From Gammaproteobacteria bacterium (GTDB lineage: Bacteria > Pseudomonadota > Gammaproteobacteria > Arenicellales > JAJDZL01), in the NCBI GenBank assembly GCA_022823405.1, contig JAJDXD010000065.1, positions 1 through 35,041 on the forward strand: a stretch of 35,041 nucleotides of DNA, written 5' to 3'. Under the pieces are notes generated by a model. The model made no database searches. It saw nothing but the letters and a program-made list of their open reading frames with translations, and was not told the origin of the DNA. Below are positions 583 through 18,563 of this stretch, one piece after another. Numbering within the stretch: position 1 is the first letter of the stretch; each line of letters begins with the position of its first letter. The position numbers and the translations under genes were made by a program.

Positions 583-1497
583 TTAATGAACTGAAGCGTT
601 AACCAGTGCATTTGCAACGCGGGATGTGGGGGGCCGCTTCAAGTGCGAAAAAACGAATTCTGACACTTCAAGTAAGTCGTTTAAATTGACACCTGTATCT
701 ACACCCATTCCGTCCAGCATATAGATCACATCCTCAGTAGCGACATTGCCGCTCGCCCCTCGGGCATATGGACAACCTCCAAGTCCACCAATTGAACTAT
801 CAACTGTGGAGACACCATGCTCTAGGGCGGTAACAATATTTGGAAGAGCCTGACCGTAGGTATCGTGAAAGTGGACAGCGATTGATTCCAGTCCAATAGC
901 GCCTTCAACTGCACACAATAACTCTCGAGTTGAGTTTATTGTGCCCACACCTATGGTGTCGCCGAGCGAGACCTCATAGCATCCACACTCGATCAGACGT
1001 TTCGCAATTGGAACGACTTTACCTGCTGAAATCTTTCCTTCATATGGACACCCCAAAACACAGGAAACGTAACCTCTGACTGGGATGCCTATTTCTCGAG
1101 CTTTCTCCAATACTGGTTGGAATCGCTCAAACGATTGTTCAATACTGCAGTTCGTATTGCGCTGCGAAAAAGTTTCAGAAGCTGCTGTGAATATTGCGAC
1201 TTCATCCACATTAGAAGCGATCGCGTCCATCAGTCCCCTGATATTTGGTACGAGTGCAACTAAAGAGACATCTTCATGCCGTCCTACACTTTTCAATACT
1301 TCAGCAGTATTGGCCATTTTTGGTACCCATTTGGGTGACACAAAACTGCCAACTTCTATGGTTTTCAGTCCGCAGGCGGACAAACGATCCACGAGCTCAA
1401 CTCGAAATGCGACCGCGGTCTGTTCAGGTTCATTTTGGAGTCCATCACGGGGCCCTACCTCAACCAGCCGCACAAAATTGGGTTTGCCCTTATTCAT
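583..1497 (-). CDS. liuE: Hydroxymethylglutaryl-CoA lyase
   Basis: A 304-residue protein of the HMGL-like TIM-barrel family, which cleaves 3-hydroxy-3-methylglutaryl-CoA to acetoacetate and acetyl-CoA, the last step of leucine degradation. The N-terminal motif VEVGPRDGLQNE carries the conserved Arg-Asp used in metal and substrate binding. The HFHDTYGQ segment supplies metal-ligand histidines, and the C-terminal loop GGLGGCPYARGASGN contains the catalytic cysteine typical of true HMG-CoA lyases. Length is normal for bacterial enzymes. Its ATG overlaps the end of the upstream carboxylase alpha-subunit gene by 8 nt, which indicates translational coupling as the last gene of the minus-strand leucine operon. 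The symbol follows the Pseudomonas liu nomenclature. Confidence 0.93.
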   Translation of the reverse strand: MNKGKPNFVRLVEVGPRDGLQNEPEQTAVAFRVELVDRLSACGLKTIEVGSFVSPKWVPKMANTAEVLKSVGRHEDVSLVALVPNIRGLMDAIASNVDEVAIFTAASETFSQRNTNCSIEQSFERFQPVLEKAREIGIPVRGYVSCVLGCPYEGKISAGKVVPIAKRLIECGCYEVSLGDTIGVGTINSTRELLCAVEGAIGLESIAVHFHDTYGQALPNIVTALEHGVSTVDSSIGGLGGCPYARGASGNVATEDVIYMLDGMGVDTGVNLNDLLEVSEFVFSHLKRPPTSRVANALVNASVH

Positions 1498-3571
1498 TAT
1501 TGGAAATTCTGTCTGATTGCTTCGATGGTTCTACAAAGATACAACTGGCTCCTTCATCGACCAGTTGATTTTCAGAATATGGAATTGAAGTGACAACTCC
1601 GTCTATTGGACTGGCAATCGGATGTTCCATCTTCATCGCTTCAACAACGATCAAAACTTGTCCGGTTAATACAGATTCGCCTTCTTCAACCAAGACACGT
1701 GCAATTCGCCCAGGCAGTGGAGCAGTTAGTGAGCCGGTGTTAACATTTGTTGAACGCGCCGCAGAAAGTCGATCTGATAGCCGCAATCCATACCTTGAAC
1801 ATTGATGAAATAAATAAACTTCATCTTCCAGCGAAATCACTGGGAGTGACCATTTAACATCATCAATGGTTGCCTCAATCGCATGATCGAAGATTTGAAC
1901 ATTAAAGCATCTATACACTCGTTCTTTAACCTTGACAACAATCTGTTGCTCACTAAGAAGTACACTGACGTTGTAGATTTGGTCATTGCATTCAAATCCA
2001 CAGGCAAATTCTTTGTGAGAATTTAGTCGCCAGCCACTGTTTGTTTGCCACGGTGAATACTTGTCGTCATTCTCTATAAGGTCTTTTCTCCAAATTTCAG
2101 TTGATTTCGATGTCAGGTAGAGTATAGCTAACACCAAAATTTCAGCGGGCAACTCTCGAATTTGTGCAGTTAGTTCTGGCAGGTTATTTTCGACGAACTT
2201 GATATCGTGTGTACAGGTAGTGAAGTCATGAGTTGTCAGTAGGTTCGATAAAAATGCTACGTTTGTGTCGACACCGACTACGTGCAGATCTCTCAACGCC
2301 TTTTGAAGTCGTTCAGTGGCTTTTGATCGATCTGAGTCACTAACGACAACTTTAGCAATTAAGGGGTCGTAGTGTACATCAACCACATCATTCTGCCGAA
2401 CACCTGTGTGCATTTGCAAGTGATCTGATTCAGACGGATAACGTAGGTACCGGATTTGACCTGGTGACGGCAAAAATCCCTTCTCTGGATTTTCTGCGTA
2501 AATTCGCGCCTGAATTGAGTGTCCATTTGGAGAGCTCGGGATTTTCAATTGTGAAATCGACTCTCCTGCAGCAATTCTAAATTGCCACTCCACAAGGTCG
2601 AATCCCGTTACCTGTTCGGTCACCGGATGCTCGACCTGAAGTCGAGTGTTCATTTCCATGAAATAGAATTCATTGTTAGCCAGTAAAAACTCGACGGTTC
2701 CAACGCTGTGGTAATTGAGGGCTCTCGTGAGGGATATCGCAGCTGCGTACATTCGCTCGCGTGTATTCTGATTAATTTGCGGTGCTGGAGCCTCCTCCAC
2801 AATTTTCTGATATCGGCGCTGGGCAGAACAGTCTCGGTCAAACAGGTGGACAGCATTCCCTTGCTTGTCGGCTGCTATTTGAACCTCAACGTGTCTGGCG
2901 GAATTTAGGTACTTTTCAATGATGATGAGATCATTACCAAAGAATTCTTTAGCCTGAGCTTTCACTGCTACTAAACTCTCGGCCAACTGGTGTTCAGAGT
3001 GGACGATGCTCATCCCTCGCCCTCCGCCTCCTAGGGCAGCTTTGAGCAATACTGGAAAACCAATGGTTTGTGCCAGTTTGGCTAAGCTGTCATCGCTATA
3101 TTCAGTTTCTCGAAAACCAGGCAACACAGGTACACCAGCTTCAATAGCAATCGCAGCTGCTTGCGCTTTAGATGCCATGCGATCAATTACGTGAGAAGGC
3201 GGACCAATGAATTCAATGTTTTCTTTTTCACAGGATTCAGCTAGAATGCTATTCTCTGATAGAAATCCATAGCCCGGATGAAGCGCGTCTGCACCTACCA
3301 TTTTGGCCGCTTCGACTATTCGATCGACATTTAGGTAACTTTCAGAAGGGCGAGACGCACCAAGGTATACCGATTCATCCGCTAATGAATTGTGTAGGGC
3401 ATCTCGGTCTGCGTCAGAGTAGACTGTCGCAACAGGAATATTGAGGCGTTGTGCTGTTCGAATGATCCGACAGGCGATCTCACCGCGGTTGGCAATCAGT
3501 AGTTTTCGAAACAACTGTTTAATCCATTCAGTGCTTTCGCCAGGCAGGTGATCGCTTATCAAGAAAGGCAC
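1490..3571 (-). CDS. liuD: Methylcrotonyl-CoA carboxylase, biotin-carrying alpha subunit
   Basis: A 693-residue acyl-CoA carboxylase alpha subunit. The biotin carboxylase domain begins at FRKLLIANRGEIACRI (about residue 20), has the glycine-rich ATP-grasp loop GGGGRGM, and extends to about residue 465. The C-terminal BCCP domain carries EAMKME, with the lysine to be biotinylated near residue 647. With the beta subunit it carboxylates 3-methylcrotonyl-CoA. The start is uncertain. The ATG at 3571 overlaps the preceding hydratase gene by 44 nt and adds about 19 residues ahead of the usual family N-terminus. A TTG at 3514 lies directly before the conserved FRKLLIANRGE and would avoid the overlap. 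The context with liuB, liuC and liuE favours methylcrotonyl-CoA over propionyl-CoA as substrate. Confidence 0.93.
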   Translation of the reverse strand: MPFLISDHLPGESTEWIKQLFRKLLIANRGEIACRIIRTAQRLNIPVATVYSDADRDALHNSLADESVYLGASRPSESYLNVDRIVEAAKMVGADALHPGYGFLSENSILAESCEKENIEFIGPPSHVIDRMASKAQAAAIAIEAGVPVLPGFRETEYSDDSLAKLAQTIGFPVLLKAALGGGGRGMSIVHSEHQLAESLVAVKAQAKEFFGNDLIIIEKYLNSARHVEVQIAADKQGNAVHLFDRDCSAQRRYQKIVEEAPAPQINQNTRERMYAAAISLTRALNYHSVGTVEFLLANNEFYFMEMNTRLQVEHPVTEQVTGFDLVEWQFRIAAGESISQLKIPSSPNGHSIQARIYAENPEKGFLPSPGQIRYLRYPSESDHLQMHTGVRQNDVVDVHYDPLIAKVVVSDSDRSKATERLQKALRDLHVVGVDTNVAFLSNLLTTHDFTTCTHDIKFVENNLPELTAQIRELPAEILVLAILYLTSKSTEIWRKDLIENDDKYSPWQTNSGWRLNSHKEFACGFECNDQIYNVSVLLSEQQIVVKVKERVYRCFNVQIFDHAIEATIDDVKWSLPVISLEDEVYLFHQCSRYGLRLSDRLSAARSTNVNTGSLTAPLPGRIARVLVEEGESVLTGQVLIVVEAMKMEHPIASPIDGVVTSIPYSENQLVDEGASCIFVEPSKQSDRISNNE

Positions 3572-4328
3572 CGACGCCTTCCTTTCCTTCTTCGGAGGCT
3601 CTGATGCTTGATATTAAGACAGCAGTGTGTTTTTGAAACTCTTCGCCCATTGATGGCGAAAATTTATCAATGACAAGACTCTTCGCCACTTTTTGAGCAT
3701 TAGGTCCGCAAGAAAGAAGTTCACGCATTATTTCAGCTTCAGATTCCGCAAGTAATTCAGCTTCACTAGATTCGTGAACCAATCCCGCATGGCGAGCTGC
3801 AGACGCATCGAATCTCTCACCAGTCAAAATGTAGCGTTTCGCGATTCGAGGGCCCATGGCATTGACGACGTATGGACCGATGACCGCAGGAATCAATCCT
3901 AGTTTCACCTCAGACAAACTGAAGACAGTAGAGCTTTCGGCCAACACAATATCACAGCAGGCGATTAGTCCCACTCCACCACCATAAACTGCACCATGGA
4001 CAACCGCCACAGTAGGTTTCGGGAAACTATACAGTGAATACATCATGTGGGCCATTTTCATGGCATCGCGATAGTTTTCCTCCTGAGCATATTCAGCTGT
4101 TCGTTTCATCCAGTTCAAATTTGCACCAGCACAAAAACTCGCGCCAGCTCCTTTAACGCAAAGAATCCTGACTGTTTCATTGGCCCGCAATTGCTGAAGA
4201 GCATTTGTGATGTCTTCAATCATAAATTCATCAAAAGCATTGTGGACATTGGGACGATTCAGCAGCAGTGTACAGATTCCCTCCGGGGTTACATCAACTT
4301 TGATTGATTCGAACTGTTGAGTGGGCAT
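3528..4328 (-). CDS. liuC: Methylglutaconyl-CoA hydratase (enoyl-CoA hydratase family)
   Basis: A 266-residue crotonase-fold protein. The oxyanion-hole region is visible as GAGASFCAGANLNWM (first oxyanion strand) and HGAVYGGGVGLIACCDIVLA (second). The segment SEVKLGLIPAVIGPYV is typical of the hydratase branch used in leucine catabolism. It is expected to hydrate 3-methylglutaconyl-CoA to HMG-CoA, between the carboxylase and the lyase. The gene lies 8 nt downstream of liuB and overlaps the annotated ATG of liuD. Crotonase sequence alone does not fix the substrate; the assignment rests on its position inside the carboxylase-lyase operon. Confidence 0.88.
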   Translation of the reverse strand: MPTQQFESIKVDVTPEGICTLLLNRPNVHNAFDEFMIEDITNALQQLRANETVRILCVKGAGASFCAGANLNWMKRTAEYAQEENYRDAMKMAHMMYSLYSFPKPTVAVVHGAVYGGGVGLIACCDIVLAESSTVFSLSEVKLGLIPAVIGPYVVNAMGPRIAKRYILTGERFDASAARHAGLVHESSEAELLAESEAEIMRELLSCGPNAQKVAKSLVIDKFSPSMGEEFQKHTAVLISSIRASEEGKEGVGAFLDKRSPAWRKH

Positions 4329-4336
4329 GATTGAAG

Positions 4337-5938
4337 TTACATTCTGAAAATTCCGAATCGGGTTGGTTCATCCGGTGCGTTATATGCTGCCGAAAGCGCC
4401 AGCCCCAATACTGTTCGAGTGTCTGCCGGATCAATGATTCCATCGTCCCAGAGCCTCGCGCTGGAATAATAAGGGCGACCCTCATTTTCATACTGATCCA
4501 AAATTGACTGCTTGAACTTTTGCTGCTCTGATTCAGGCCACGGGTCGCCTTTCACACTATCAGCTCGTACCTGGGTGAGAACGTTGCCAGCCTGTTCGCC
4601 GCCCATTACTGAGATTCTTGCATTGGGCCACATCCATAAAAAGCGGGGCGAATATGCGCGCCCACACATTGCATAATTACCTGCTCCAAAGCTGCCACCG
4701 ATAATGATTGTGAATTTTGGCACATTTGCACAAGCGACAGCCGTAACCATCTTCGCACCATCTTTGGCTATTCCACCCGCTTCATATTTCTTTCCGACCA
4801 TGAATCCAGCAATATTCTGTAGAAAAATCAATGGAACATTTCGTTGGCAACAGAGTTCGATGAAGTGAGCCGCTTTCAACGCAGATTCAGAATATAGAAT
4901 GCCCTTGTTTGCAACAATTCCGACCGGGTAGCCCATCAGGTGAGCAAATCCACACACCAGAGTCTCACCATAAAGCCGCTTGAATTCATGAAATTCACTT
5001 CCGTCTACAAGTCGGGCAATGACCTCCCTTACATCATAGGACTGTCTGAGGTCAGTGGGCACAATACCATACAAGTCACTTGCCTCATACAGTGGTTCTT
5101 GGGGAGCCTGAACTTCTATGTTCAGGCGTTTCGAACGGTTTAATGTGGCCACAATTTCCCTGATCATCGAAAGAGCGTGTTCATCGTCGTCAGCACAGTG
5201 ATCGGTGATACCGGACTCACGAGAGTGGACATCTGCACCTCCGAGTTCTTCAGCCGTGACCGATTCACCCGTAGCAGCTTTGACAAGCGGTGGCCCGCCT
5301 AGGAATATTGTGCCCTGACCGCGGACGATTATGGATTCATCGCACATTGACGGCACATAGGCACCACCAGCGGTACAAGAGCCCATGACCGCAGCAATCT
5401 GAGGGATTTTGGCCGCTGACATCGTAGCCTGATTGAAAAATATGCGCCCGAAGTGCTCTCTATCCGGGAAAACGTCATCCTGTCTTGGAAGAAAAGCACC
5501 GCCAGAATCAACCAAATATATACAGGGGAGATTGTTTTGTAATGCGATTTCCTGAGCACGCAGGTGTTTTTTGACGGTCATGGGGTAATAGGTTCCACCT
5601 TTGACCGTCGCATCATTGGCAAAGACCATACACTCCCGACCTTGAATCGATCCGATGCCAGTTACGATCCCAGCTGCAGGAACGTTGTCGTCATACATCT
5701 GATAGGCCGCATATGGCGCCACTTCCAGAAAAGGGGAACCGCGATCCAACAGTAGTCGAATTCGATCTCGGGGTAGTAACTTTCCACGTGATTGATGTTT
5801 TTGGCGGGAGCGCTCGCTGCCCCCAACTTGAATGGCGGAAAGTGTTTGATTGAGGTCATCTACCAAGGTCGACATTGCTTGGTAGCGATCGACAAACTCA
5901 GGACTATTTTTGTTGATGTTTGATGGAATAACTGGCAT
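4337..5938 (-). CDS. liuB: Methylcrotonyl-CoA carboxylase, carboxyltransferase beta subunit
   Basis: A 533-residue carboxyltransferase of the acyl-CoA carboxylase beta family. It has the duplicated crotonase-like halves: an N-terminal half with [20 protein letters not shown] and [15 protein letters not shown], and a C-terminal half with [20 protein letters not shown] followed by [16 protein letters not shown]. The FMVGKKYE and [14 protein letters not shown] stretches are characteristic of methylcrotonyl-CoA rather than propionyl-CoA or acetyl-CoA carboxyltransferases. Length matches the family, which is about 535 residues. It transfers the carboxyl group from biotin on the alpha subunit to methylcrotonyl-CoA. 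It lies 30 nt after the DsbA-like gene and 8 nt before liuC in one transcription unit. Confidence 0.94.
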
Positions 5939-5968
5939 GATTTTGGGTGCTGGGGTTCAACCCCTTAA

Positions 5969-6574
5969 CTACCAACCTCCAGATTCAAGCCACGACTCAA
6001 CATGATTCAAGCGGTCGTGTCCCCAGAATGGCTCGTTGTCAACAATGAAAAATGGTGAACCGAATACACCTCGTTCAATAGCCCTGTCGGTTTCTTCGCG
6101 AACTTTAAGTTTGATGTCTGGATTCTCAAGTGCATCGTTTACTGCATTGGCATCAAAGCCCAAACTAGTGGCTACTTCGACGACAGTCGGTGATTTTGAA
6201 ATGTTCAAATTCTTGACAAAGTACGCGCGAAAACTCGCTTGCGCAAACTGTCTGGCGCTTTCCGATCCGTACTCATCTCTAATCCAATAAAACACGCGAG
6301 AAGGTGCAACACTTGAAACGGGAAATACACTCGGAACTGAAAATTCGATTCGGTGATAGCGAGCAACGCGATCCAAGTCTCGAGCACTGTATTGATTAAC
6401 CATCGGAATTTGAACCAGCGGTTTTCGACCTGTAACTTTCATGACTGCGCCCATGACATATGGGCGCCAGATGATCTCACAGCTGCAACGCTGTGAGAAC
6501 TCGTCCATCACCTCGCTTGAAAAATAACCGTATGGTGAAGAGAAATCGAAATAAAAATCAATCGTTTTGTTCAC
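5969..6574 (-). CDS. DsbA-family protein, 2-hydroxychromene-2-carboxylate isomerase-like
   Basis: A 201-residue thioredoxin-fold protein of the HCCA isomerase / GST-kappa branch of the DsbA superfamily. The N-terminus FYFDFSSPYGYFSSEV carries the catalytic serine in place of a CxxC pair. VFGSPFFIVDNEPFWGHDRL near the C-terminus is the cis-proline and G-site region of the family. There is no signal peptide, so it should be cytoplasmic. Members typically use glutathione. Its substrate here is unknown: none of the leucine pathway steps needs such an isomerase. The start codon is GTG (6572-6574 on the plus strand reads CAC). It sits 32 nt after the thiolase and 30 nt before liuB, so it is very probably co-transcribed with the leucine genes. 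Confidence 0.85.
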   Translation of the reverse strand: MNKTIDFYFDFSSPYGYFSSEVMDEFSQRCSCEIIWRPYVMGAVMKVTGRKPLVQIPMVNQYSARDLDRVARYHRIEFSVPSVFPVSSVAPSRVFYWIRDEYGSESARQFAQASFRAYFVKNLNISKSPTVVEVATSLGFDANAVNDALENPDIKLKVREETDRAIERGVFGSPFFIVDNEPFWGHDRLNHVESWLESGGW

Positions 6575-6606
6575 TTTTGAGAGCCTCGCGAAAGAACTGG
6601 GCGATA

Positions 6607-7791
6607 CTAAGTGCGCACTACGCCAATCGCTGTAGCTTCACCACCGCCAATGCAAAGCGAGGCAACGCCGCGCTTTAGATCGTATCGTTCCATCGCTGCA
6701 ATCAGAGTAACCAGAATTCGCGTGCCTGAAGCCCCAACAGGATGACCCAGTGCACAAGCACCACCATGAATATTCATCCGATCATGCGGAATCTTCAAAC
6801 TGTGCATTGCTGCCATCGTAACTACTGCAAATGCCTCGTTGACTTCAAAAAGATCAACGTCATCGACTGACCAATTGAGTTTATCGAGTAACGTACTGAT
6901 CGCACCGATTGGTGCAGTTGGAAAAAGATTGGGTTCTGCGGCAAAAGTGGTGTGCCCAACCAGTCGTGCTTTAATTGGCTTATCGCGGCGTTGGACTTCA
7001 GCCTCTGACATCAATACTACGGTTGCACCACCATCTGAAATTGAGCTGGAATTGGCAGCAGTAACGCTGCCGTTTTTACGAAATGCAGGTCTAAGAAATG
7101 GGATTTTTTCAGAATTGGTTGTTTCAGGCTGTTCATCATTTGTTACTTCATAAGTTTCTTTTCTCGTAGAAACTTGAACCGGTGTGATCTCCCGAGCAAA
7201 TGTGCCGCTTTGGGTCGCCTTCTGCGCTCGGGTCAAAGATTCAATTGCAAATTCATCCTGTGCCTCCCGACTGAACTGATAAGACTCGGCACAGTCTTCA
7301 GCGAACTCTCCCATCAGTGCACCTTTCTGGTACGCATCTTCAAGACCGTCAGCGAACATATGATCGAGAACCTGGTTATGTCCCATGCGAAACCCACCCC
7401 TCGCCTTGGGCAGGATGTAGGGAGCATTGCTCATGCTTTCCAGACCACCTGTTGCGACAACAGAGTTGGTCCCCGCAACGATTGAATCGTACCCGAGCAT
7501 GACTGTCTTCATGCCAGAGCCGCACATTTTGTTGACTGTTGTGCATCCGACGGATTTAGGGATGCCTGCGGCAAGTGCTGCCTGCCGTGCAGGCGCCTGA
7601 CCAATCCCCGCTGGCAGTACGCAGCCCATTAGCACTTCATCAACATCGGATCCTGAGATGTCAGAATCTTCAAGTGCTGCTTGAATCGAGGCAGCTCCGA
7701 TCTGTGGCGCGGTTAGTGGGGAGAGTCGACCCTGAAAGCCACCAATCGGTGTTCGGGCCAATCCTGTAACGACGACGGATGAATTTTCCAT
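6607..7791 (-). CDS. Acetyl-CoA C-acetyltransferase (thiolase)
   Basis: A 394-residue degradative or biosynthetic-type thiolase. Cys90 in the segment VNKMCGSGMK is the acyl-accepting nucleophile. GGACALGHPVGASGTRI carries the active-site histidine, and the C-terminal SLCIGGGEATAIGVVR carries the second catalytic cysteine. Length is typical for thiolase II enzymes. It interconverts two acetyl-CoA and acetoacetyl-CoA. In a leucine operon it would process acetoacetyl-CoA after acetoacetate, the HMG-CoA lyase product, has been activated. No CoA-transferase or acetoacetyl-CoA synthetase gene is visible here, so that activation must be encoded elsewhere. It is spaced 31 nt from isovaleryl-CoA dehydrogenase in the same operon. 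Confidence 0.93.
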   Translation of the reverse strand: MENSSVVVTGLARTPIGGFQGRLSPLTAPQIGAASIQAALEDSDISGSDVDEVLMGCVLPAGIGQAPARQAALAAGIPKSVGCTTVNKMCGSGMKTVMLGYDSIVAGTNSVVATGGLESMSNAPYILPKARGGFRMGHNQVLDHMFADGLEDAYQKGALMGEFAEDCAESYQFSREAQDEFAIESLTRAQKATQSGTFAREITPVQVSTRKETYEVTNDEQPETTNSEKIPFLRPAFRKNGSVTAANSSSISDGGATVVLMSEAEVQRRDKPIKARLVGHTTFAAEPNLFPTAPIGAISTLLDKLNWSVDDVDLFEVNEAFAVVTMAAMHSLKIPHDRMNIHGGACALGHPVGASGTRILVTLIAAMERYDLKRGVASLCIGGGEATAIGVVRT

Positions 7792-7822
7792 TGATGTTGT
7801 TCCTGTTGAGTAAAAAAGTGAA

Positions 7823-8992
7823 TTAAGAGGTTTCTTCGAATAGTTCTCGTCCGATCAGCATGCGACGAATTTCGCTGGTTCCCGCCCCAATTTCATAGAG
7901 TTTGGCATCTCTCAGTAGACGACCTGTAGGCATTTCGTTAATGTAGCCCATGGCACCGAGTGCCTGAATCGCCTGTAATGCGCATTCAGTCGCTTTTTCC
8001 GCTGTAAACAGAATCGTCGCCGCGGCATCCTTTCTGGTTGTTTCGCCGCGATCACAGGCTTTTGCCACTGCGTATGCGTAAGCCCTAGAGGCATTCAAGA
8101 AAGTGTACATATCGGCCATTTTGCCCTGAATGAATTGAAACTCGCCAATACTTTTACCAAATTGCTTGCGTTCGTGCACGTAAGGTACGACAGTATCGAG
8201 GCAAGCCTGCATGATACCGAGCGGGCCGCCTGCCAAAACAACTCGTTCGTAATCAAGACCACTCATCAGGACCCGAACGCCACCACCGACTTCACCCAAT
8301 ACGTTTTCTGGCGGCACTGCACAATTTTCGAATATCAACTCACAGGTGTTGGAGCCTCGCATACCGAGCTTGTCCAGTTTTTGCGCTGTCGAAAATCCGT
8401 CAAACTCACGTTCGATCAGAAAAGCGGTGATTCCGCGGCTTCCTGCCAGTGGGTCTGTTTTAGCATAAACGACCAGTACATCAGCGTCCGGACCATTTGT
8501 AATCCACATTTTGTTGCCATTCAACACAAAGTGATCATCTTCAGCAACAGCTTCCAAACGCATACTCACGACATCCGACCCTGAATTGGGTTCTGTCATT
8601 GCGAGCGCGCCGACATGTTCGCCACTAATGAGTCTAGGCAGGTACTGATTTCGTTGCTCATCGGTGCCGTTTCTGTATATCTGGTTCACTGCCAGGTTTG
8701 AATGAGCGCCATAGGAAAGCCCAACCGAGGCTGATGCACGGCTTATTTCTTCCATCGCGACTACGTGCTCCAGATAGCCCATTCCGGCCCCGCCATATTG
8801 TTCGCTGACGGTAATACCCAGTAGACCCATCTCACCCATCGCCAGCCACAAATGGAGTGGAAATTCGTTCGACTGATCAATTTCGGCAGCAAGTGGTGCA
8901 ATTTGCTCCTGTGCAAATTCCTGTACGCTTGAGCGAAGCAGGTCGACGGTCTCGCCCAATCCGAAATTTAGCGTCGCATGCGAAGTACTCAT
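7823..8992 (-). CDS. liuA: Isovaleryl-CoA dehydrogenase
   Basis: A 389-residue acyl-CoA dehydrogenase, first gene of the minus-strand operon. It has the N-terminal helical domain, the central FAD-binding strand region ([18 protein letters not shown] and [18 protein letters not shown]) and the C-terminal helical domain ending in [19 protein letters not shown]. The segment [18 protein letters not shown] places the catalytic glutamate at the position used by isovaleryl-CoA dehydrogenases (equivalent to human Glu254) rather than the C-terminal position of other acyl-CoA dehydrogenases. It oxidises isovaleryl-CoA to 3-methylcrotonyl-CoA and passes electrons to ETF. The ATG at 8990-8992 has only a weak ribosome binding site. 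A sigma-70-like promoter lies about 60 nt upstream. Confidence 0.94.
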
Positions 8993-9078: not shown

Positions 9079-9333
9079 GAAAATAGAGAAATATCCGTGT
9101 TAAATCGAAAAATCGAACATTAGTTCAATCAACTGGTCATTATATAAATTTGGTTGAGTACCATTGGTATTGCGAATAATTGAATCCAGTTTGAGGCGTA
9201 TTCTTTGTGTCATTGCATGTCGATGAATTCTCTTTTGTAATTGAGTCCTTTTAAACTCATAAAATGAAGGTGCGAAGTGAAATAAACGCACGCACACTAG
9301 CACTTGTTCTTATTCTTGATTTATCTGCTCCCC

Positions 9334-9888
9334 ATGTTGTTACGATTTTTTTCAGGTTCTGCAATTCATCTCCGGTACTTAACTGGAAGTGCAATTGCGT
9401 CAATGATTTTCAGTTTACCCGTTCTTGCAAACACCAGCGATCATATTGGTCCGGACCCCATTCAATCCGAAAAATGTGTAATGATTACCCCGGAACGATC
9501 CATAACCTGTGTGGGGCGCCAGCTATTGCCTGATTCAAGTCTGACACCAATGGTGACAATCAACTGTAAACCTGGAATTTTCATTTTGCTCACGCATAGG
9601 CCTATGGCAACGAATTCCTCAACTCGAGAGGTTCGCCTGATATCCGAGGAAGGTGAGTTTACCAGCCAATGGCTGGCTCTATCTGACACTCAGTCCGGTT
9701 TTCTGGTGTTCTACCGCGGCGTGGGATCGGATGATTACGCTTGGATGCTTCGTCTGCTTGGACAACTGAATTCGCTCGACTCAAGTCTTTTTGGGTATTC
9801 ATTCGATTCCGAGCAGATCGGAGGTATCTTTGAATTTAATTATTCAGACCGGAAAATGATCGAACAACTCCTTCCCAACTGCGGATGA
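9334..9888 (+). CDS. Secreted four-cysteine protein, paralogue A
   Basis: A 184-residue protein from the ATG at 9334. The frame is open further upstream to a TTG at 9304, but the ATG start gives a clean Sec signal peptide: basic start MLLRFF, a hydrophobic stretch to IFSLPVLA, and predicted cleavage after Ala32. The mature protein has four cysteines (KC, TC, NC and the C-terminal NCG), which could form two disulfides. A central block, MATNSSTREVRL, and a later W-LSDTQS block are shared by all three paralogues. The layout (a beta-strand ending in a Cys, then VRL strands, then a Trp) faintly recalls the TagO/VasI family of type VI secretion-associated periplasmic proteins, but I cannot confirm that and no T6SS genes are nearby. 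No Shine-Dalgarno sequence is evident. Function unknown. Confidence 0.8.
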   Translation: MLLRFFSGSAIHLRYLTGSAIASMIFSLPVLANTSDHIGPDPIQSEKCVMITPERSITCVGRQLLPDSSLTPMVTINCKPGIFILLTHRPMATNSSTREVRLISEEGEFTSQWLALSDTQSGFLVFYRGVGSDDYAWMLRLLGQLNSLDSSLFGYSFDSEQIGGIFEFNYSDRKMIEQLLPNCG

Positions 9889-9889
9889 G

Positions 9890-9921
9890 TCAGTTTCCTG
9901 GGGGAGCAATACAAATCGTTG
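9890..9921 (-). pseudogene. Thioesterase 3' stub in unit A
   Basis: This stretch of about 32 bp matches the last codons and stop of the intact thioesterase gene at 12165-12200 in unit C. It ends at GTTGTC, a 6-mer also found in the 3' part of the monooxygenase gene (12833-12838), where the first deletion joined them. It is not functional by itself. Confidence 0.75.
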
Positions 9922-10003
9922 TCGCGCCTTCTCTAGTAATGGCACTTGAAAGGGACACGGGGCAGACACCAGCCATCGGGGCCAAGAGAATTGGAATATT
10001 CAG
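9922..10003 (-). pseudogene. Nitronate monooxygenase 5' stub in unit A
   Basis: On the minus strand this encodes IPILLAPMAGVCPVSLSS, nearly the same as residues 24-41 of the intact nitronate monooxygenase, and then breaks off. About 10 nt at 9921-9930 still match the 3' end of the intact monooxygenase gene, which suggests two successive deletions. By chance an open frame of 79 codons (9890-10129) runs through both stubs and out into the upstream region of unit B. It is best read as debris rather than a gene. Confidence 0.75.
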
Positions 10004-10004
10004 T

Positions 10005-10095
10005 GATGGCAAAGTTTGAGGTGTGTTCTTGGTGCAATTGCAGTCAATAAATTTTCTTTCAGAGTTGAGTCCTTGTAGACTGATACAATGAAAGT
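10005..10095 (+). promoter_or_regulatory. Conserved upstream block of secreted-protein gene B
   Basis: About 90 nt here are almost identical to 11455-11545 upstream of copy C, and a diverged form is present upstream of copy A (9189-9265). All three contain TTGAGTCCTT, a short inverted AGT/ACT repeat and a -10-like hexamer (TACAAT at 10084-10089; TAAAAT in copy A). No good -35 hexamer lies at 16-18 nt spacing. It is probably the promoter or operator region of the family, but recent duplication alone could explain identity between B and C. Confidence 0.45.
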
Positions 10096-10159
10096 GCGAC
10101 GTGAAGTAAACGCGGACGTACACTAGCACTTGTTCTTATTCTTGATTTGTTTTCTACCC

Positions 10160-10714
10160 ATGTTGTTACGATTATTTTCAGGTTCTGCGATTCATCTCTG
10201 GTACTTAACTGGAAGTGCAATTGCGTCAATGATTTTCAGTCTGCCCGTTCTTGCAAACATCAGCGATCATATTGATCCAGACCCCCAATCGGATAAATGT
10301 GTGGAGATTATCTCGGAACGAAGTAAAGCCTGTGTGGGGCGCCAGCTAATGCCTGATTCAAATCTGACACCAACGATGATAATCAGCTGCGACAATTCTG
10401 AAGGTAGAATTACCATTGTGCTCACGCATCGGCCCATGGCAACGAATTCCTCAACTCGAGAGGTTCGCCTGAAATCCGAGAACGGTGAGTTGACTAACCA
10501 ATGGCTGGTTCTTTCCGACACTCAGTCCATTCTGAGTGTGTCTTACTCCGGTGCGGAATCGGATGATTACCTCTGGATTTTTAATATGTTTGCAAGTTTG
10601 TTTCGGGGAAACACCAGTATATTTGGGTATTCATTCGATTCCGAGCAGATCGAAGGCGTCTTTCAATTTAGTGATTCAGACCGGAGAATGTTCGCAGCAC
10701 TTAGTTGCGGATGA
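10160..10714 (+). CDS. Secreted four-cysteine protein, paralogue B
   Basis: A 184-residue paralogue of the protein at 9334-9888, with the same length from the aligned ATG. Signal peptide MLLRLFSG...SLPVLA is predicted to be cleaved after Ala32. The four cysteines (KC, AC, SC and the C-terminal SCG) are conserved, as are MATNSSTREVRL, the W-LSDTQS segment and IFGYSFDSEQIEGVFQF near the end. No stop or frameshift is present even though the neighbouring enzyme genes of this unit are broken, so this gene seems to have been kept while its surroundings decayed. Function is unknown; a loose TagO/VasI-like pattern is only a hypothesis. Confidence 0.8.
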   Translation: MLLRLFSGSAIHLWYLTGSAIASMIFSLPVLANISDHIDPDPQSDKCVEIISERSKACVGRQLMPDSNLTPTMIISCDNSEGRITIVLTHRPMATNSSTREVRLKSENGELTNQWLVLSDTQSILSVSYSGAESDDYLWIFNMFASLFRGNTSIFGYSFDSEQIEGVFQFSDSDRRMFAALSCG

Positions 10715-10715
10715 G

Positions 10716-11070
10716 TCCGTTTCCTGTCGGAGCAATACAAATTGTTGTCTGCTGTATGATCGCACAGAGTGTCGTCTTGGAGGTTTTGGTGCAGTGAACA
10801 TTGATGGTCGCTGCAGTAAGGGTTCGGCCCGCTTTGATGACCGTCGCTTCTGCCGAAAGTAGCTCACCATCGGCAGGTGCCAGCAGTTTAATCTTGAATT
10901 CAACCGTCAAGACTCGGTGACCCGCTCGCATGAGTGAGTACGCCGCGTAACCACCGGCCGAATCCCCAATCGTACTCGTAGAGCCAGCGTGAAAAAAATC
11001 CGTCCTGCTGTGTCAATTGGGGCTTGAAAGGCATGTCGATCACACAATAGCCAGGCTCGATCTGACGCAT
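10716..11070 (-). pseudogene. Decayed PaaI-type thioesterase in unit B
   Basis: This is closely similar to the intact thioesterase gene at 12165-12626 but lacks roughly the first 35 codons. It has a one-base insertion in a run of seven A (10992-10998) that shifts the frame just after DGFF, where the active-site HAG should follow. The normal TGA stop has also changed (TCA to TCC on the plus strand). Its 5' end is joined to the 3' part of the monooxygenase at GCAT near 11067-11070. It cannot make a working enzyme. Confidence 0.88.
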
Positions 11071-11453
11071 TGACAGATACCGCCGCTTTCGCATAATCTG
11101 TTGCGATGGAACGTCCTAAACGACCCGAAAATGTGCGTGTCAGGATAGTGTGATTTGGCATTGTAGTGCCAATCACATCAGACCACGCAGGTGGAATGCC
11201 CGCTTCCGAAGTGCGCAAGAACCCAGTTCCAATTTGAACCGCTGACGCGCCAATCGTGATTGACGCCGCAATTCCACGACCGTCAGCAATTCCACCCGTA
11301 GCGAAAACGGGAACACTCACGGAGTCGACAATCGCAAACGGTTGCATTAGTAAAACTCCGCACGCGCCGAGCCCGCCTTCTCTAGCAACAGCACTTGAAA
11401 GGGAGACGGGGTAGGCTCTTGGTCATAGGGGCTAAAAGAATTGGAATTTTCAG
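11066..11453 (-). pseudogene. Decayed nitronate monooxygenase in unit B
   Basis: This matches the intact monooxygenase at 12719-13807 but lacks the last 60 or so codons and an internal 450 bp. The internal junction, near 11330, joins LLMQP...AIVD of the N-terminal part to SVSVPVFATGG of the phosphate-binding part, at a 10-nt repeat AGTCGACAAT present at both positions in the intact gene (13162-13171 and 13612-13621). That deletion is in frame, but another small insertion around 11412-11432 shifts the frame in the PMAGACPVS motif. The central flavin and active-site region, including AGGHRG, is gone. Confidence 0.88.
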
Positions 11454-11611
11454 CGATGGCAAAGTTTGAGGTGTGTTCTTGGTGCAATTGCAGTCAATAA
11501 ATTTTCTTTCAGAGTTGAGTCCTTGTAGACTGATACAATGAGGGTGTGACGCGAAATAAACGCGACGCATTCTAGCACTTATCTTTATTCTTGATTTATA
11601 TTCAACCCATC

Positions 11612-12163
11612 TTGTTACGATTTTTTTCAGGTTCTGTAATTCATCTCTGGTATTTAACTGGAAGCGCGATTGCGTCAATGATTTTCAGTTTGCCCGTTCT
11701 TGCAGACATCAGCGATCATATTGATCCAAACCCCCAATCGGATAAATGTGTGGAGATTATCCCGGAACGAACCATAGCCTGTGTGGGGCGCCAGCTAATA
11801 CCTGATTCAAATCTGACACCAACAGTGATAATCAGCTGCGACAGTTCTGAAAGTAGAATTACCATTGTGCTCACGCATTGGCCCATAGCAACGAATTCCT
11901 CAACTCGAGAGGTTCGCCTGATATCCGAGAATGATGAGTTTTCCAGGCAATGGCTGGTTCTTTCCGACACTCAGTCCAGTCTGAGTGTGTCCTACCCCGG
12001 TGCGGAATCGGATGATTACGCCTGGATTTATAAGCTACTTCAAGGTTTGTTTTGGGGAACTACCAGTATTTTTGGGTATTCATTCGATTCCGATCAGATC
12101 GAAGGCGTCTTTCAATTCAGTGATTCAGACCAGAGTATGATCGCACCAGTTAGTTGCGGATGA
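11612..12163 (+). CDS. Secreted four-cysteine protein, paralogue C
   Basis: A paralogue of the proteins at 9334 and 10160, with the same reading frame and stop. The ATG used by the other two copies has become ATC here (11609-11611). The next codon, TTG at 11612, would start the protein one residue later with the signal peptide intact; a TTG at 11591 is an alternative giving 190 residues. The signal peptide ends in SLPVLA, and the four cysteines and the TNSSTREVRL block are conserved. The gene ends 1 nt before the stop of the convergent thioesterase gene. Expression may be lower than for copies A and B because of the start codon. Function unknown. Confidence 0.72.
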   Translation: MLRFFSGSVIHLWYLTGSAIASMIFSLPVLADISDHIDPNPQSDKCVEIIPERTIACVGRQLIPDSNLTPTVIISCDSSESRITIVLTHWPIATNSSTREVRLISENDEFSRQWLVLSDTQSSLSVSYPGAESDDYAWIYKLLQGLFWGTTSIFGYSFDSDQIEGVFQFSDSDQSMIAPVSCG

Positions 12164-12164
12164 T

Positions 12165-12626
12165 TCAGTTTCCTGGCGGAGCAATACCAATCGTTGTCTG
12201 CTGCATGATCGCACAGAGTGTTGTCTTAGAGTTTTTGGTGCAGTGAACATTGATGGTCGCTGCAGTAAGGGTTCGCCCCGATTTGATGACCGTCGCTTCT
12301 GCCGAAAGCAGTTCACCATCTGCAGGTGCCAGCAGGTTAATTTTGAATTCAACTGTCAAGACTCGGTGACCCGATGGCATTAGTGAGTACGCCGCGTAAC
12401 CACCGGCCGAATCAGCAATCGTACTCGTAGAGCCAGCGTGGAAAAAGCCGTCCTGCTGTGTCAATTGGGGCTTGAAAGGCAAGTCGATCACACAATAGCC
12501 CGGTTTGATCGTGCGCATAGTCGCACCCAACAATTGCATGATTCCCTGCGAATTGAAGCTTGATCTAACTTCGTGTTCGTAATTTGAGTTGACTGGGATG
12601 AAGATTGGTTTGTTTGAATCTTTCAT
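12165..12626 (-). CDS. PaaI-family hotdog-fold thioesterase
   Basis: A 153-residue protein with the single hotdog domain of PaaI/YbgC-like acyl-CoA thioesterases. The segment DGFFHAGSTSTIADSAGGYA is the hotdog helix motif, in which HAG replaces the common HGG and Asp of IADSAG is the usual catalytic acid. VEFKINLLAPADGELLSAEA is the typical strand following it. It is expected to hydrolyse an acyl-CoA; the substrate cannot be inferred. It follows the monooxygenase gene on the same strand with a 92-nt gap and is convergent with secreted protein C. This is the only complete copy of three. Confidence 0.88.
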   Translation of the reverse strand: MKDSNKPIFIPVNSNYEHEVRSSFNSQGIMQLLGATMRTIKPGYCVIDLPFKPQLTQQDGFFHAGSTSTIADSAGGYAAYSLMPSGHRVLTVEFKINLLAPADGELLSAEATVIKSGRTLTAATINVHCTKNSKTTLCAIMQQTTIGIAPPGN

Positions 12627-12718
12627 TTAAAGGAGGACATTGATAGAAGTGTTACCGGTCATTGCTGCATTTTGTAGCCTGAATTCCTATTCAATCCATT
12701 GAATGAAACGCAGCGAAT

Positions 12719-13807
12719 TCAGGGAAGCAGTTTTTGTGCCTCATCCCAAAGTCTGTTAATGAGTTGCCCAGCTGGTTCAGCAGAAGATAGAAAACCAGAC
12801 TGCCCTGTCCACGCCTGCATCCTTGCCAAATTGTTGTCGCGCCTTGCTTGGCCCGTCATACTGCCCGTGAGCCCTCGCTGTATGGGGTAAGGCGCGGGTT
12901 CTGGCGCATCGACGGATTCCGCAGCTTTCGCATAATCTGTCGCGATAGAGCGCCCTAATCGACCCGAAAATGCGCGTGTCAGAATAGTATGATTTGGCAT
13001 TGTAGTGCCAATCGCATCAGACCACGCAGATGGAATGCCCGCTTCCGGAGTGCGCAAGAATCCGGTGCCAATTTGAACCGCTGACGCACCAAGCGTGATT
13101 GCCGCTGCAATTCCTCGACCGTCAGCAATTCCACCCGTAGCAACAACGGGAACACTCACGGAGTCGACAATTGCTGGCAATATTGAAATTAATCCACCCG
13201 CCGCACGCTGAGCGTCTCCTGCTACGTAGGTGCCTCGATGTCCACCTGCTTCAAATCCTTGCGCGACGACTACGTCGGCACCCATACTCACGGCGAGCTT
13301 TGCTTCTTCGACAGTTGTTGCGGTCGCCAGCCAGTAAGTTCCGGCCTTCTTCATTCGCTCTACAAATGGACGAGGATAGACCCCCATGATCGAAGAAATA
13401 ACAGCAGGTTGGACTTGCAGCATAGCCTCACACTGCTCTTCAAAATCAGGTGTTTCGAGCATCGGTCTGGCGGATCCTGAGTCAGGGTGCCAATTTGCCA
13501 AAAATTCTCGAATCTGTTGTTCGTGGATTTCATCTCTCACCGGTGTAGGGTCTGGAATCCAGTTGTTCATCTGAAATTGGCCTTTCGATTCCGATCGGAA
13601 CTGCTTTGCCCAGTCGACAATCGCTGACGGTTGCATTAGTAATACTCCGCACGCGCCGAGCCCGCCTTCTCTAGCAACAGAACTTGAAAGGGAGACGGGG
13701 CAGGCACCAGCCATTGGGGCCAAAAGAATTGGAATTCTCAGGTTCAGTTTTCGACAGAACTGTTCCGTTCTGACATTCCAGGACTTTGATTTTGACATTG
13801 CTACCAT
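12719..13807 (-). CDS. Nitronate monooxygenase family FMN protein
   Basis: A 362-residue TIM-barrel flavoprotein of the nitronate monooxygenase / 2-nitropropane dioxygenase family. Visible motifs are LLAPMAGACPVSLSSSVAREGGLG at the N-terminus, VVVAQGFEAGGHRG in the middle (the AGGHRG motif with the active-site histidine), and VVATGGIADGRGIAAAITLGASAVQIGTGFL for FMN phosphate binding. Family members oxidise alkyl nitronates such as propionate 3-nitronate; some relatives instead act as enoyl reductases. Two in-frame ATGs exist, at 13807 and 13798. Truncated copies occur in units A and B. The paired thioesterase may act in the same pathway, but that is only inferred from co-orientation. Confidence 0.9.
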   Translation of the reverse strand: MVAMSKSKSWNVRTEQFCRKLNLRIPILLAPMAGACPVSLSSSVAREGGLGACGVLLMQPSAIVDWAKQFRSESKGQFQMNNWIPDPTPVRDEIHEQQIREFLANWHPDSGSARPMLETPDFEEQCEAMLQVQPAVISSIMGVYPRPFVERMKKAGTYWLATATTVEEAKLAVSMGADVVVAQGFEAGGHRGTYVAGDAQRAAGGLISILPAIVDSVSVPVVATGGIADGRGIAAAITLGASAVQIGTGFLRTPEAGIPSAWSDAIGTTMPNHTILTRAFSGRLGRSIATDYAKAAESVDAPEPAPYPIQRGLTGSMTGQARRDNNLARMQAWTGQSGFLSSAEPAGQLINRLWDEAQKLLP

Positions 13808-14100: not shown

Positions 14101-14769
14101 TCACCCGGCGCTGCGTTGTTTCTGATCGCCGCCAACAACCAGCCGCAGATGTGGCACGCCCCTTTGCACCCCGTACACCCCGTGATAGCCGTTCGCTACA
14201 AAGTCCTCCGGCGGCGTCGCATACTTGAAGACGCCGTCATTGATATCGATCAAATGAATCCCCGCATTCCAGACTTTCCAGCGGCCCTCTTCACTGATTT
14301 TCACTACAGCCAGCATCGGATACACGGCCCGCTTCTCATAGTCTGACATATAGTACCGAAACCGCTCCACCAGCTGCATTACCTGCTCAATGTGCCCGTC
14401 GCGAAACTTGCTCTTGGTCTCTACTATGTAAGCCGCACCCGTACCGTTGCGGCTGAGACCCCAGGCATCTATTTCCAGAGCCTTCATTTCCTTAGAGTTC
14501 CTAAATCGGATCGATCCTAGAAAGTCGGCTTCAAACCGCTCCTCCAGTATTCTTCTGATGGAAGGTCTTGCCATCGCTTCGGTATAGCCGCCGAACTTGT
14601 TGCCTAGTCCACCGATCTGTTTGCCGTTCTCTATGATCATTTCTTTCGCTTCCTTGAGCTGTCTGTTCGTTTCCTTGAACTGTTCAGCCAGTTCAACTCG
14701 AAGTTCAGCATATCGCTCATTCAACTCTCTGATTCTTTCGTCGGAAACGGATGGGTTTTCTTTTTTCAT
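14101..14769 (-). CDS. Coiled-coil PD-(D/E)XK nuclease-like protein
   Basis: A 222-residue protein. Residues 5-55 are charged and helical, consistent with a coiled coil. They are followed by a linker GGLGNKFGGYTEAMARPSI and a domain with a restriction-endonuclease-like signature: Asp101 in ALEIDAW and Glu117-Thr-Lys119 in AAYIVETKSKF form the D...ExK pattern. This resembles the DUF3782-type proteins common in cyanobacteria and in accessory regions. Such proteins have no settled function; DNA processing or a role in mobile elements is possible. No partner gene, toxin-antitoxin mate or methyltransferase is adjacent. Its G+C appears higher than that of its surroundings, which would fit acquisition by transfer, but I did not compute this. 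Confidence 0.72.
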   Translation of the reverse strand: MKKENPSVSDERIRELNERYAELRVELAEQFKETNRQLKEAKEMIIENGKQIGGLGNKFGGYTEAMARPSIRRILEERFEADFLGSIRFRNSKEMKALEIDAWGLSRNGTGAAYIVETKSKFRDGHIEQVMQLVERFRYYMSDYEKRAVYPMLAVVKISEEGRWKVWNAGIHLIDINDGVFKYATPPEDFVANGYHGVYGVQRGVPHLRLVVGGDQKQRSAG

Positions 14770-15338: not shown

Positions 15339-18300
15339 ATGGCGGTAGCGGCTGCAAAAATCAGGTCTGTTCAGGATGAGGCACTGAATCTAGGGCCATT
15401 GCGATTTATAACCGCAACTAGCTTGTTCGATGGTCATGATGCGGCGATAAACGTGATGCGCCGAATCCTGCAGAGTTCCGGTGCCGAAGTGATTCATCTG
15501 GGGCATAACCGATCAGTTCGTGAGGTAGTAACCGCCGCAGTTCAGGAAGACGCTGATGGAATCGCTGTCAGTTCCTATCAAGGTGGCCATATCGAATACT
15601 TCAAGTACATCTTGGATATGCTGGAAGAATACGGACGCTCAGACATTCACGTATTCGGCGGTGGGGGTGGTGTCATCGTACCCCACGAAATTGAAGAGTT
15701 GCACCAGTATGGTGTCGCCCGCATTTTCTCTCCAGAAGACGGTCAGCAGATGGGTCTGCAGGGGATGATTGATGCAATGCTCAAGATCTGCTGTTCCAAA
15801 CCGAGATCGCATAGCGCAATCTTGACCGACAGTTTGCAGCGTGGCGACTTTACAGACTTGGCTGTACTGATCAGTGCGCTTGAAGGCGGCTCCTCTGAAG
15901 CCGTCAATTTTGTTCGGAAAATGGCCAAAGTCGGTAGCGGACCTCCAATTCTGGGGATTACGGGAACTGGTGGCTCAGGCAAGTCGTCACTGACTGATGA
16001 GCTGGTGCGTAGAATTCGACTTTATGGCGAAGCAAAAACTCGAGTTGCCATCTTAGCGGTTGATCCCAGCCGCAAGAAAACTGGCGGTGCGCTGCTTGGT
16101 GATCGAATCCGTATGAATGCTGCAGATTCCGATCAGATCTATTTTCGTTCGATTGCCACCCGAGATGCGAGCGGAGATGTACCCGGGTGTTTGGACGATG
16201 TAATCAAGGCCTGCAAATATTGGAATTTTGATCTGATCATCGTGGAAACACCTGGAATCGGTCAAGGGGATACGGGAATTGTTTCGTATGTTGATCGCTC
16301 GATTTATGTGATGACTCCTGAATATGGATCGGCAAGTCAGCTTGAGAAAATCGATATGCTGGATTTTGCAGATCTGGTGGCAATCAATAAATTTGATACC
16401 AGAGGCGCTGAGGACGCTTACCGGGATGTGTGTCGACAGGTGCAGAGAAATCAAATGGCTTTTGATCAGAATTACACTGAAATGCCAGTCTTTGGCACCA
16501 TTTCCTCCCGATTTAACGACGACGGCATCACAGCGCTATATCAGGAGATTGTTAATCTGCTAGGTGTTCCGGCAAAAAGCAGTCGCTTCCCACCACTGGC
16601 AGAATCCAAATATTCTTCGGCTCGTACGGGAGTGATTCCTAGCGAAAGGAGTGGGTATCTCGCGGAAATATCTGCGACAGCCAGAGGGTATCGCAGTAAT
16701 GTCGAAGCACAGGCACAATTGGTGAGAGAAATTCAGCAGTTGAATGCCGCGCTGGAAATGATTGGAGAGACTGACACTCAAGAACTTACAGCATTGCGGG
16801 AAGCCTTGCGGAATAGAGAGCTCAGAGTCGAAAAATTTTCTGCTCAGACGCTCAATGACTGGCAATCGAAAGTTGCGACGTATCGGCAGGAAATGAACGA
16901 ATCCAGGTATTCAGAAACCATTTCCGGTACGCGGGTGCCAAAAATTGCCTTACCGCGTTTTTCCGATCACGGCGATCTGCTTCGTTGGCTGATGCTGGAA
17001 AATTTACCTGGTGTTTTCCCTTTTACGGGTGGTGTGTTTCCATTCAAGCGCGAGGACGAAGATCCCACTCGCATGTTTGCCGGTGAAGGTGGACCCTCCA
17101 AAACCAATCGCCGATTCAAGCTCTTGTCCAGTCATTCGGAAGCCAAGCGGCTGTCGACCGCATTCGATTCCGTTTCTTTGTATGGTTTCGATCCCGATGA
17201 ACGGCCCGATATTTTTGGAAAAGTCGGCAACTCGGGTGTCTCAATTGCAACGCTGGATGACATGAAGGATCTATACAGCGGATTTGATCTTTGCAGCCCA
17301 CGCACTTCGGTGTCCATGACAATTAATGGTCCCGCACCAACCTATCTTGCCTTCATGCTCAATACCGCCATTGACCAGCAATTCGAAGCGTTTGAAAGTG
17401 AACAGGGTCGTACTCCGAACGCAGAAGAGGCTGAGAATCTCAGAGCACATGCGCTGCGTCAGGTGAGAGGAACAGTACAGGCTGATATTTTGAAAGAAGA
17501 CCAGGGGCAAAACACCTGTATTTTTTCAACTGAGTTCAGTCTGCGCCTGATGGGAGATATTCAGGAGTATTTCATTGAAAATGAAGTCAAAAATTTCTAC
17601 TCGGTTTCAATTTCAGGCTATCACATTGCGGAAGCTGGCGCAAACCCCATCTCACAACTTGCGTTTACTTTGGCGAATGCGTTCACCTATGTGGAAATGT
17701 ATCTCTCAAGAGGTATGCACATTGATGATTTCGCACCTAATCTGTCATTTTTCTTCTCCAACGGGCTTGATGCTGAATACACCGTCATGGGACGGGTTGC
17801 GAGGCGCATCTGGGCGGTCGCACTAAAAGAACGATATGGTGCAAACACCAGGAGTCAGCGCCTCAAATACCACATTCAAACTTCGGGACGTTCGCTGCAT
17901 GCGCAGGAAATTGATTTCAATGACATTCGTACCACCTTGCAGGCTTTGATTGCCGTATATGACAACTGCAACAGCCTGCATACCAATGCTTACGATGAGG
18001 CGATCACAACACCGACCGAGGAGTCTGTGCGTCGCGCAGTGGCCATTCAACTCATTATCAACAAGGAATGGGGCCTCGCTCGCAACGATAACCCGAATCA
18101 GGGAAGTTTTATTCTTGAAGAATTAACCGATCTTGTTGAAGAGGCGGTACTCTGCGAGTTTGATGCCATATCCAGACGAGGTGGTGTTCTTGGTGCAATG
18201 GAAACAGGTTATCAGCGAGGTCGCATCCAGGACCAGTCGCTCTACTATGAGCGACTCAAGCATGATGGAACCCTGCCAATTGTGGGGGTAAACACCTTTT

Positions 18301-18563
18301 TGAACCCAGATGCTTCACAGGATGCGACGATCGAACTTGCCAGATCAACCGAAGCCGAAAAAATATCTCAGTTGGAGAGATTGCGTGAGTTTCATACCCG
18401 TCATCGCGAACAGTCGCCGGCAGCACTAGAGGAGTTGAAATCAGCGGTACTTGAGGGACGTAACGTATTCGCTGAACTGATGTCGACGGTGCGTTATTGC
18501 TCAGTCGGTCAAATCACATCGACTTTGTTTGAAGTTGGCGGCAAATATCGTCGCAACATGTAA
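15339..18563 (+). CDS. icmF: Fused isobutyryl-CoA mutase (IcmF)
   Basis: A 1074-residue three-part coenzyme-B12 enzyme. First is a B12-binding domain, with FDGHDAAINVM near residue 29, AVSSYQGGH, and VFGGGGGVI. A MeaB/MeaI-type G-protein chaperone domain follows, with P-loop GTGGSGKSSLTDE near residue 208. The mutase TIM barrel runs from about residue 540 to the end. This order is diagnostic of IcmF rather than ordinary methylmalonyl-CoA mutase. At the substrate-selecting position, Gln724 in GQNTCIF stands where methylmalonyl-CoA mutases have Arg in VRNTYIF, which fits an uncharged acyl-CoA. It interconverts isobutyryl-CoA and n-butyryl-CoA; characterised IcmFs also convert isovaleryl-CoA to pivalyl-CoA. 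It faces away from the nuclease-like gene and is followed by a stem-loop at 18569-18603. Confidence 0.95.
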   Translation: MAVAAAKIRSVQDEALNLGPLRFITATSLFDGHDAAINVMRRILQSSGAEVIHLGHNRSVREVVTAAVQEDADGIAVSSYQGGHIEYFKYILDMLEEYGRSDIHVFGGGGGVIVPHEIEELHQYGVARIFSPEDGQQMGLQGMIDAMLKICCSKPRSHSAILTDSLQRGDFTDLAVLISALEGGSSEAVNFVRKMAKVGSGPPILGITGTGGSGKSSLTDELVRRIRLYGEAKTRVAILAVDPSRKKTGGALLGDRIRMNAADSDQIYFRSIATRDASGDVPGCLDDVIKACKYWNFDLIIVETPGIGQGDTGIVSYVDRSIYVMTPEYGSASQLEKIDMLDFADLVAINKFDTRGAEDAYRDVCRQVQRNQMAFDQNYTEMPVFGTISSRFNDDGITALYQEIVNLLGVPAKSSRFPPLAESKYSSARTGVIPSERSGYLAEISATARGYRSNVEAQAQLVREIQQLNAALEMIGETDTQELTALREALRNRELRVEKFSAQTLNDWQSKVATYRQEMNESRYSETISGTRVPKIALPRFSDHGDLLRWLMLENLPGVFPFTGGVFPFKREDEDPTRMFAGEGGPSKTNRRFKLLSSHSEAKRLSTAFDSVSLYGFDPDERPDIFGKVGNSGVSIATLDDMKDLYSGFDLCSPRTSVSMTINGPAPTYLAFMLNTAIDQQFEAFESEQGRTPNAEEAENLRAHALRQVRGTVQADILKEDQGQNTCIFSTEFSLRLMGDIQEYFIENEVKNFYSVSISGYHIAEAGANPISQLAFTLANAFTYVEMYLSRGMHIDDFAPNLSFFFSNGLDAEYTVMGRVARRIWAVALKERYGANTRSQRLKYHIQTSGRSLHAQEIDFNDIRTTLQALIAVYDNCNSLHTNAYDEAITTPTEESVRRAVAIQLIINKEWGLARNDNPNQGSFILEELTDLVEEAVLCEFDAISRRGGVLGAMETGYQRGRIQDQSLYYERLKHDGTLPIVGVNTFLNPDASQDATIELARSTEAEKISQLERLREFHTRHREQSPAALEELKSAVLEGRNVFAELMSTVRYCSVGQITSTLFEVGGKYRRNM

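Follow-up and report, generated by a model that had tools for sequence, protein, structure and literature searches.

Three tandem units in a gammaproteobacterial genome, with enzyme genes lost at short direct repeats and one exported-protein gene open in every unit

The stretch of DNA analysed here (hereinafter the window) is the 35,041-nucleotide (nt) contig JAJDXD010000065.1 of a gammaproteobacterium of the order Arenicellales (assembly GCA_022823405.1). Positions 9188-13741 consist of three head-to-tail copies (hereinafter designated units A, B and C) of a 2.3-kilobase (kb) unit, which carries a gene for a small exported protein on the plus strand and genes for a thioesterase and a nitronate monooxygenase on the minus strand. 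With a probability of roughly 0.88, we propose that a tandem duplication was followed by the gain of a third unit and by the loss of redundant enzyme genes at short repeats, the exported-protein gene being kept in all units. The array is ordinary biology produced by a standard mechanism, and an unusually legible natural example of it.

The limits of the units were taken from global pairwise alignments with long gaps allowed. These alignments bear out two claims of a first-pass annotation made from the sequence alone, namely that the region comprises three head-to-tail units and that B lacks 391 and 450 base pairs (bp) relative to C; all eight repeat copies quoted there are present where it placed them.

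9188-10003 (+): unit A, 816 bp; enzyme genes deleted, 79-nt right end retained (alignment to unit C and to the closest relative, G001)
10004-11453 (+): unit B, 1450 bp; two deletions in the enzyme part (alignment)
11454-13741 (+): unit C, complete (alignment)

B and C are about 91% identical outside the two gaps, and A and C about 84% identical if short indels and the net 1463 bp missing from A are disregarded. A whole-genome search found sequences of the array only at this one place in its own genome.

The closest relative, a metagenome-assembled gammaproteobacterium (G001, record JAJEHQ010000006.1), shares the flanking genes of the window, with DNA about 90% identical, and carries a single unit, which is intact. 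A more distant relative (G002) also has one unit, with the gene order of the window unit. Because both carry a single unit, the array is the derived state and the gaps in A and B are true deletions. The alignments and these two outgroups together support the order of events suggested in the first-pass annotation, successive duplication and then repeat-mediated deletion.

Both internal junctions read TTGGAAT-TTCAG, an 11-nt filler (T/C)GATGGCAAAG and TTTGAGG. The left edges of A and of the G001 unit lead directly into CAGT(T/G)TGAGG with the filler absent, and the right edges of C and of the G001 unit continue into the monooxygenase gene.

10004-10014 (+): junction filler TGATGGCAAAG between A and B; absent at the left edge of A and in G001
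11454-11464 (+): junction filler CGATGGCAAAG between B and C; one change relative to the A-B filler

Since the filler is common to the two internal junctions only, a single joining event with little homology produced the first duplication and one junction is a copy of the other, which suggests that the third unit probably arose by homologous recombination between units. A common novel junction absent from the single-copy relative is the mark of a tandem duplication with a single join, and the single-unit state of G001 (same flanks) and G002 (same gene order) agrees with it. The filler also accounts for a 10-nt difference ascribed earlier to the upstream region of A: the length mismatch is real and consists of the 11 nt present at 10004-10014 and 11454-11464 only. 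The only candidate template for the filler, GATGGCAA on the minus strand at 14568 and 16045 of the window, is at chance level and was rejected.

For three of the four deletions, the ends coincide exactly with direct repeats, which measure 12, 13 and 6 bp in G001. For the first deletion in A, both G001 sites read CAAATCGTTGTC (12 bp, spacing 640); the hexamer GTTGTC named earlier for this deletion is present as quoted, yet is only a stub of the 12-bp repeat. The second deletion in A (823 bp) used CGCCTT (6 bp), and the 450-bp deletion in B used AGTCGACAAT, which extends to 13 bp in G001. At spacings of 640, 450 and 823, the repeats used are the longest available in the G001 unit. Homology of the observed length is expected at about 0.5-0.8% of random junction positions at the spacings of 450, 640 and 823 bp, and at about 16% at the spacing of 391 bp.

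9912-9930 (+): deletion scar of A, CAAATCGTTGTC-G-CGCCTT; two joined deletions of 640 and 823 bp, identical to the G001 internal site
11061-11070 (+): scar of the 391-bp deletion in B, TCTGACGCAT; crossover in TC
11323-11332 (+): scar of the 450-bp deletion in B, AGTCGACAAT
12827-12845 (+): intact internal site of C, CAAATTGTTGTC-G-CGCCTT; counterpart of the site used by the two deletions in A
13162-13171 (+): left copy of AGTCGACAAT in C
13612-13621 (+): right copy of AGTCGACAAT in C
13663-13668 (+): right copy of CGCCTT in C

The signature of deletion at short direct repeats, with both repeats present before the event and one copy left after it, is thereby found at these three sites. Replication slippage or single-strand annealing may have been the route.

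Several observations weigh against this history. The fourth deletion, of 391 bp, has only 2 bp of exact crossover homology (TC), inside an imperfect 10-bp repeat (TCGTGCGCAT/TCTGGCGCAT): from TCTG onward, B (GATCTGACGCAT) follows the right-hand sequence. The GCGCAT copies to which this deletion had been assigned are present, but the crossover lies just to their left, so the expectation that every gap would coincide with a listed repeat holds for three deletions and fails for this one. The right end of B (79 nt) is 82% identical to A and 89% identical to C, although a simple unequal crossover predicts that it should be closer to A. Formation of B by such a crossover, with its left part from C and its right part from A, does not fit this right end and is left as suggestive; the synonymous differences between B and C (27 of 147 sites in the enzyme part, 13.5 of 124 in the exported-gene part) do fit it. 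Of the one, two or three units that related genomes had been expected to show, G001 and G002 have one each, and the genome of the window was the only one found to have two or three; the order of events is thus reconstructed from a single genome and from relatives with one unit.

Gene loss in the array was selective. Decay is limited to the two enzyme genes, for which the first-pass description of a graded decay stands; it fails for the exported-protein gene, which is open in all three units and evolves in A unlike in B and C.

12165-12626 (-): thioesterase (4HBT), intact; Pfam PF03061, expectation value (E) 4.8e-11; 92% identical in G001
12719-13807 (-): nitronate monooxygenase, intact, first codons beyond the right edge of the unit; Pfam PF03060, E 7.2e-60; 93% identical in G001
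10719-11060 (-): thioesterase remnant of unit B; 1-nt frameshift, stop lost, start deleted
11061-11453 (-): nitronate monooxygenase remnant of unit B; two joined pieces
9925-10003 (-): nitronate monooxygenase remnant of unit A; 79 nt

The ratio of nonsynonymous to synonymous substitution rates (dN/dS) between the enzyme remnants of B and their counterparts in C is 0.21-0.27, suggesting that the B enzymes were probably useful or under constraint for some time before they broke. The deletions in B also create an open frame of 146 amino acids (aa) at 10907-11347 (-), in which two monooxygenase pieces are in frame and are followed by out-of-frame thioesterase sequence. This joining of monooxygenase and thioesterase resembles the deletion-born gene fusions described in PMC12803068; here, however, the thioesterase sequence is not read in its own frame.

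The gene retained in every unit encodes a small protein with four conserved cysteines and a probable Sec signal peptide.

9334-9888 (+): exported-protein gene copy A; 184 aa, probable Sec signal peptide, ancestral type; protein 90% identical to G001, pairwise dN/dS 0.17
10160-10714 (+): exported-protein gene copy B; 184 aa, divergent type; 69% identical to A, open frame
11612-12163 (+): exported-protein gene copy C; divergent type, ATG changed to ATC with TTG as the next codon; 68% identical to A, open frame

The A and G001 copies are under constraint, with dN/dS of 0.16-0.19 (pairwise 0.17; branch model 0.19). A branch model with 0.19 for A/G001 and 1.49 for the B/C lineage fits better than a single ratio (log likelihood -1479.99 versus -1495.20, a gain of 15.2), and within the B/C lineage dN/dS is 2.56 on the shared stem and 1.0 on the tips. 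As judged from these codon statistics, the fast change of the B and C copies may reflect relaxed constraint or a new function. The possibility that B and C are unconstrained pseudogenes in the making, open by chance so far, has not far short of an even chance of being correct: the tip ratio of 1.0 and the lost ATG of C agree with it, and in simulations both tips stay open under neutrality with a probability of 0.13. Over all three branches, stem included, this probability falls to about 1.3% (0.013), all three coding indels preserve the frame, and the first 120 alignment columns, corresponding to the signal-peptide region, received 0 stem substitutions. These three observations favour instead the gain of a new or diversified function by positive selection after amplification, as in the innovation-amplification-divergence model, as does the stem ratio of 2.56, which departs from 1 with p about 0.02 (twice the log-likelihood difference, 5.5). 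The stem test drops to p about 0.12 after removal of two very divergent tracts, however, the tips stand at 1.0, B/C changes avoid family-conserved columns weakly (p 0.06-0.18) and C has no ATG; we regard such a gain as possible but rather unlikely. Of the innovation-amplification-divergence pattern, the array shows a constrained A and a B/C dN/dS of 1.5, with the stem above 1 only marginally. The fuller account, a readable natural case of that model in which a genus-restricted exported protein was amplified, positive selection drove the two extra copies to a new function and hitch-hiking enzymes were pruned by repeat-mediated deletion, is doubtful.

A tract of about 36 nt in the exported-protein genes of B and C (10579-10620 and 12028-12069) is almost unalignable with A and G001, and in B it contains a small hairpin-like GTTTCGGGGAAAC. 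A foreign origin of the B/C gene type was considered and rejected: no other homologue is present in its own genome, the genome collection gave only the G001 record, and a plasmid search, made with copy A only, gave no match.

The synonymous divergence (dS) of the exported-protein gene dates the duplication relative to G001. It is 0.24-0.25 between A and B/C, 0.32 between A and G001, and 0.35-0.37 between B/C and G001; because the first value is below the second, the duplication postdates the split from G001. It is improbable that the duplication is older than this split and that G001 returned to one unit through recombination between the first and last units. Such a collapse would give a unit with the left part of A and the right part of C, exactly as in G001, and copy A is 90% identical to G001 and copy C 66%, but the dS values run the other way and the more distant G002 is likewise single-unit.

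The loss of the enzyme genes from A had been read as two deletions, a reading for which the window alone offers one retained base. G001 strengthens it considerably, as the 19-nt scar of A, CAAATCGTTGTCGCGCCTT, equals the G001 internal site letter for letter. Owing to this identity, two successive deletions, or one event that switched through the internal site, are far likelier than one deletion with a random base. One deletion with a 1-nt insertion would account for the single base (G, 9924) between the two repeat stubs, but the 7 nt beyond the 12-bp repeat would match by chance at only 4^-7, making this origin of A very improbable.

The units have probably also exchanged patches of sequence, because homogenised stretches link B with C and A with B. 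The left ends of B and C match without a difference for about 78 nt (run test p 0.006), while the neighbouring sequence differs by 10-20%, and in a short segment immediately preceding the start codon A and B resemble each other most (p 0.005). We give almost no credence to an assembly artefact: the genome is a draft of 166 contigs and the array occurs in one genome only, but the units differ by 9-20%, a divergence not invented by an assembler, and the longest exact repeat between them (87 bp) is shorter than common short reads.

The exported-protein family occurs in 6 of 109 genomes of the order, all six of the window's genus. In three other species the gene lies elsewhere, near purB or dihydroorotate dehydrogenase-like genes, and adjoins a second, distant paralogue whose cysteines follow a similar pattern; these pairs form an older tandem pair of the family.

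L034, 3946-5020: exported-protein gene beside distant paralogue
L035, 4533-5679: exported-protein gene beside distant paralogue
L036, 3185-4292: exported-protein gene beside distant paralogue

No Pfam family matched the exported protein above threshold; VasI (PF11319, a type VI secretion accessory protein) stayed below the Pfam cut-off, with a best E of 0.028 in 2 of 11 members, and VipB (PF05943) is absent from all six genus genomes searched. Fold matches are weak only, the predicted model (predicted local distance difference test score 68) bearing a slight resemblance to the MotY N-terminal domain and invasion-associated protein B (Z 9.2, 8.3 and 8.2; Foldseek E at least 0.09).

Elsewhere in the window, a 465-aa open frame at 30031-31428 (+) joins NusB to a thiamine-monophosphate kinase (AIRS domains); it is open over its full length in 5 of 6 genus genomes, and G002 matches residues 126-465 only. 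A fused methylmalonyl/isobutyryl-CoA mutase of 1074 aa with B12-binding and MeaB-type GTPase domains (15339-18563, +) adjoins an apparent leucine-degradation gene cluster (583-8992).

The history we propose would begin with a single illegitimate join that duplicated a 2.3-kb segment, comprising the exported-protein gene facing the thioesterase gene and most of the nitronate monooxygenase gene, and left the 11-nt filler behind. Homologous recombination between units would probably have added the third unit with the same junction, and patches of sequence would have been exchanged. Redundant extra enzyme genes would then have been lost by deletions between short direct repeats, two in A and two in B, with the exported-protein gene retained everywhere, ancestral and constrained in A and diverging rapidly in B and C.

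Tandem duplication and amplification in bacteria proceed from an illegitimate first join to homologous recombination, and the innovation-amplification-divergence model describes one outcome. The array resembles such amplifications in its head-to-tail units, the one novel junction at all joins and the unequal fate of its copies; unlike recent and identical arrays, it is old and diverged (9-20%), and it is multi-gene with one gene alone kept in all copies. A literature search on innovation-amplification-divergence combined with other terms returned no paper. After the tetraploidy of maize, duplicate genes were lost by deletions ending in direct repeats of 3-24 bp, sometimes imperfect (PMC2893956). 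Redundant duplicates were likewise lost here at direct repeats (about 6-13 bp), but in a tandem array of a bacterium, for which a sister genome still shows the repeats as they stood before the deletions.

In bacteria, natural duplications of several genes are usually caught either at an early stage, with identical copies, or after their traces have vanished. The present case combines a preserved junction, deletion scars, the repeats that preceded the deletions and an intact sister locus, so that most steps can be placed in order and assigned to exact repeats. The value of the array is that of a good worked example, with no new mechanism, in which the fate of one gene can be traced apart from its neighbours: the exported-protein gene escaped the decay.

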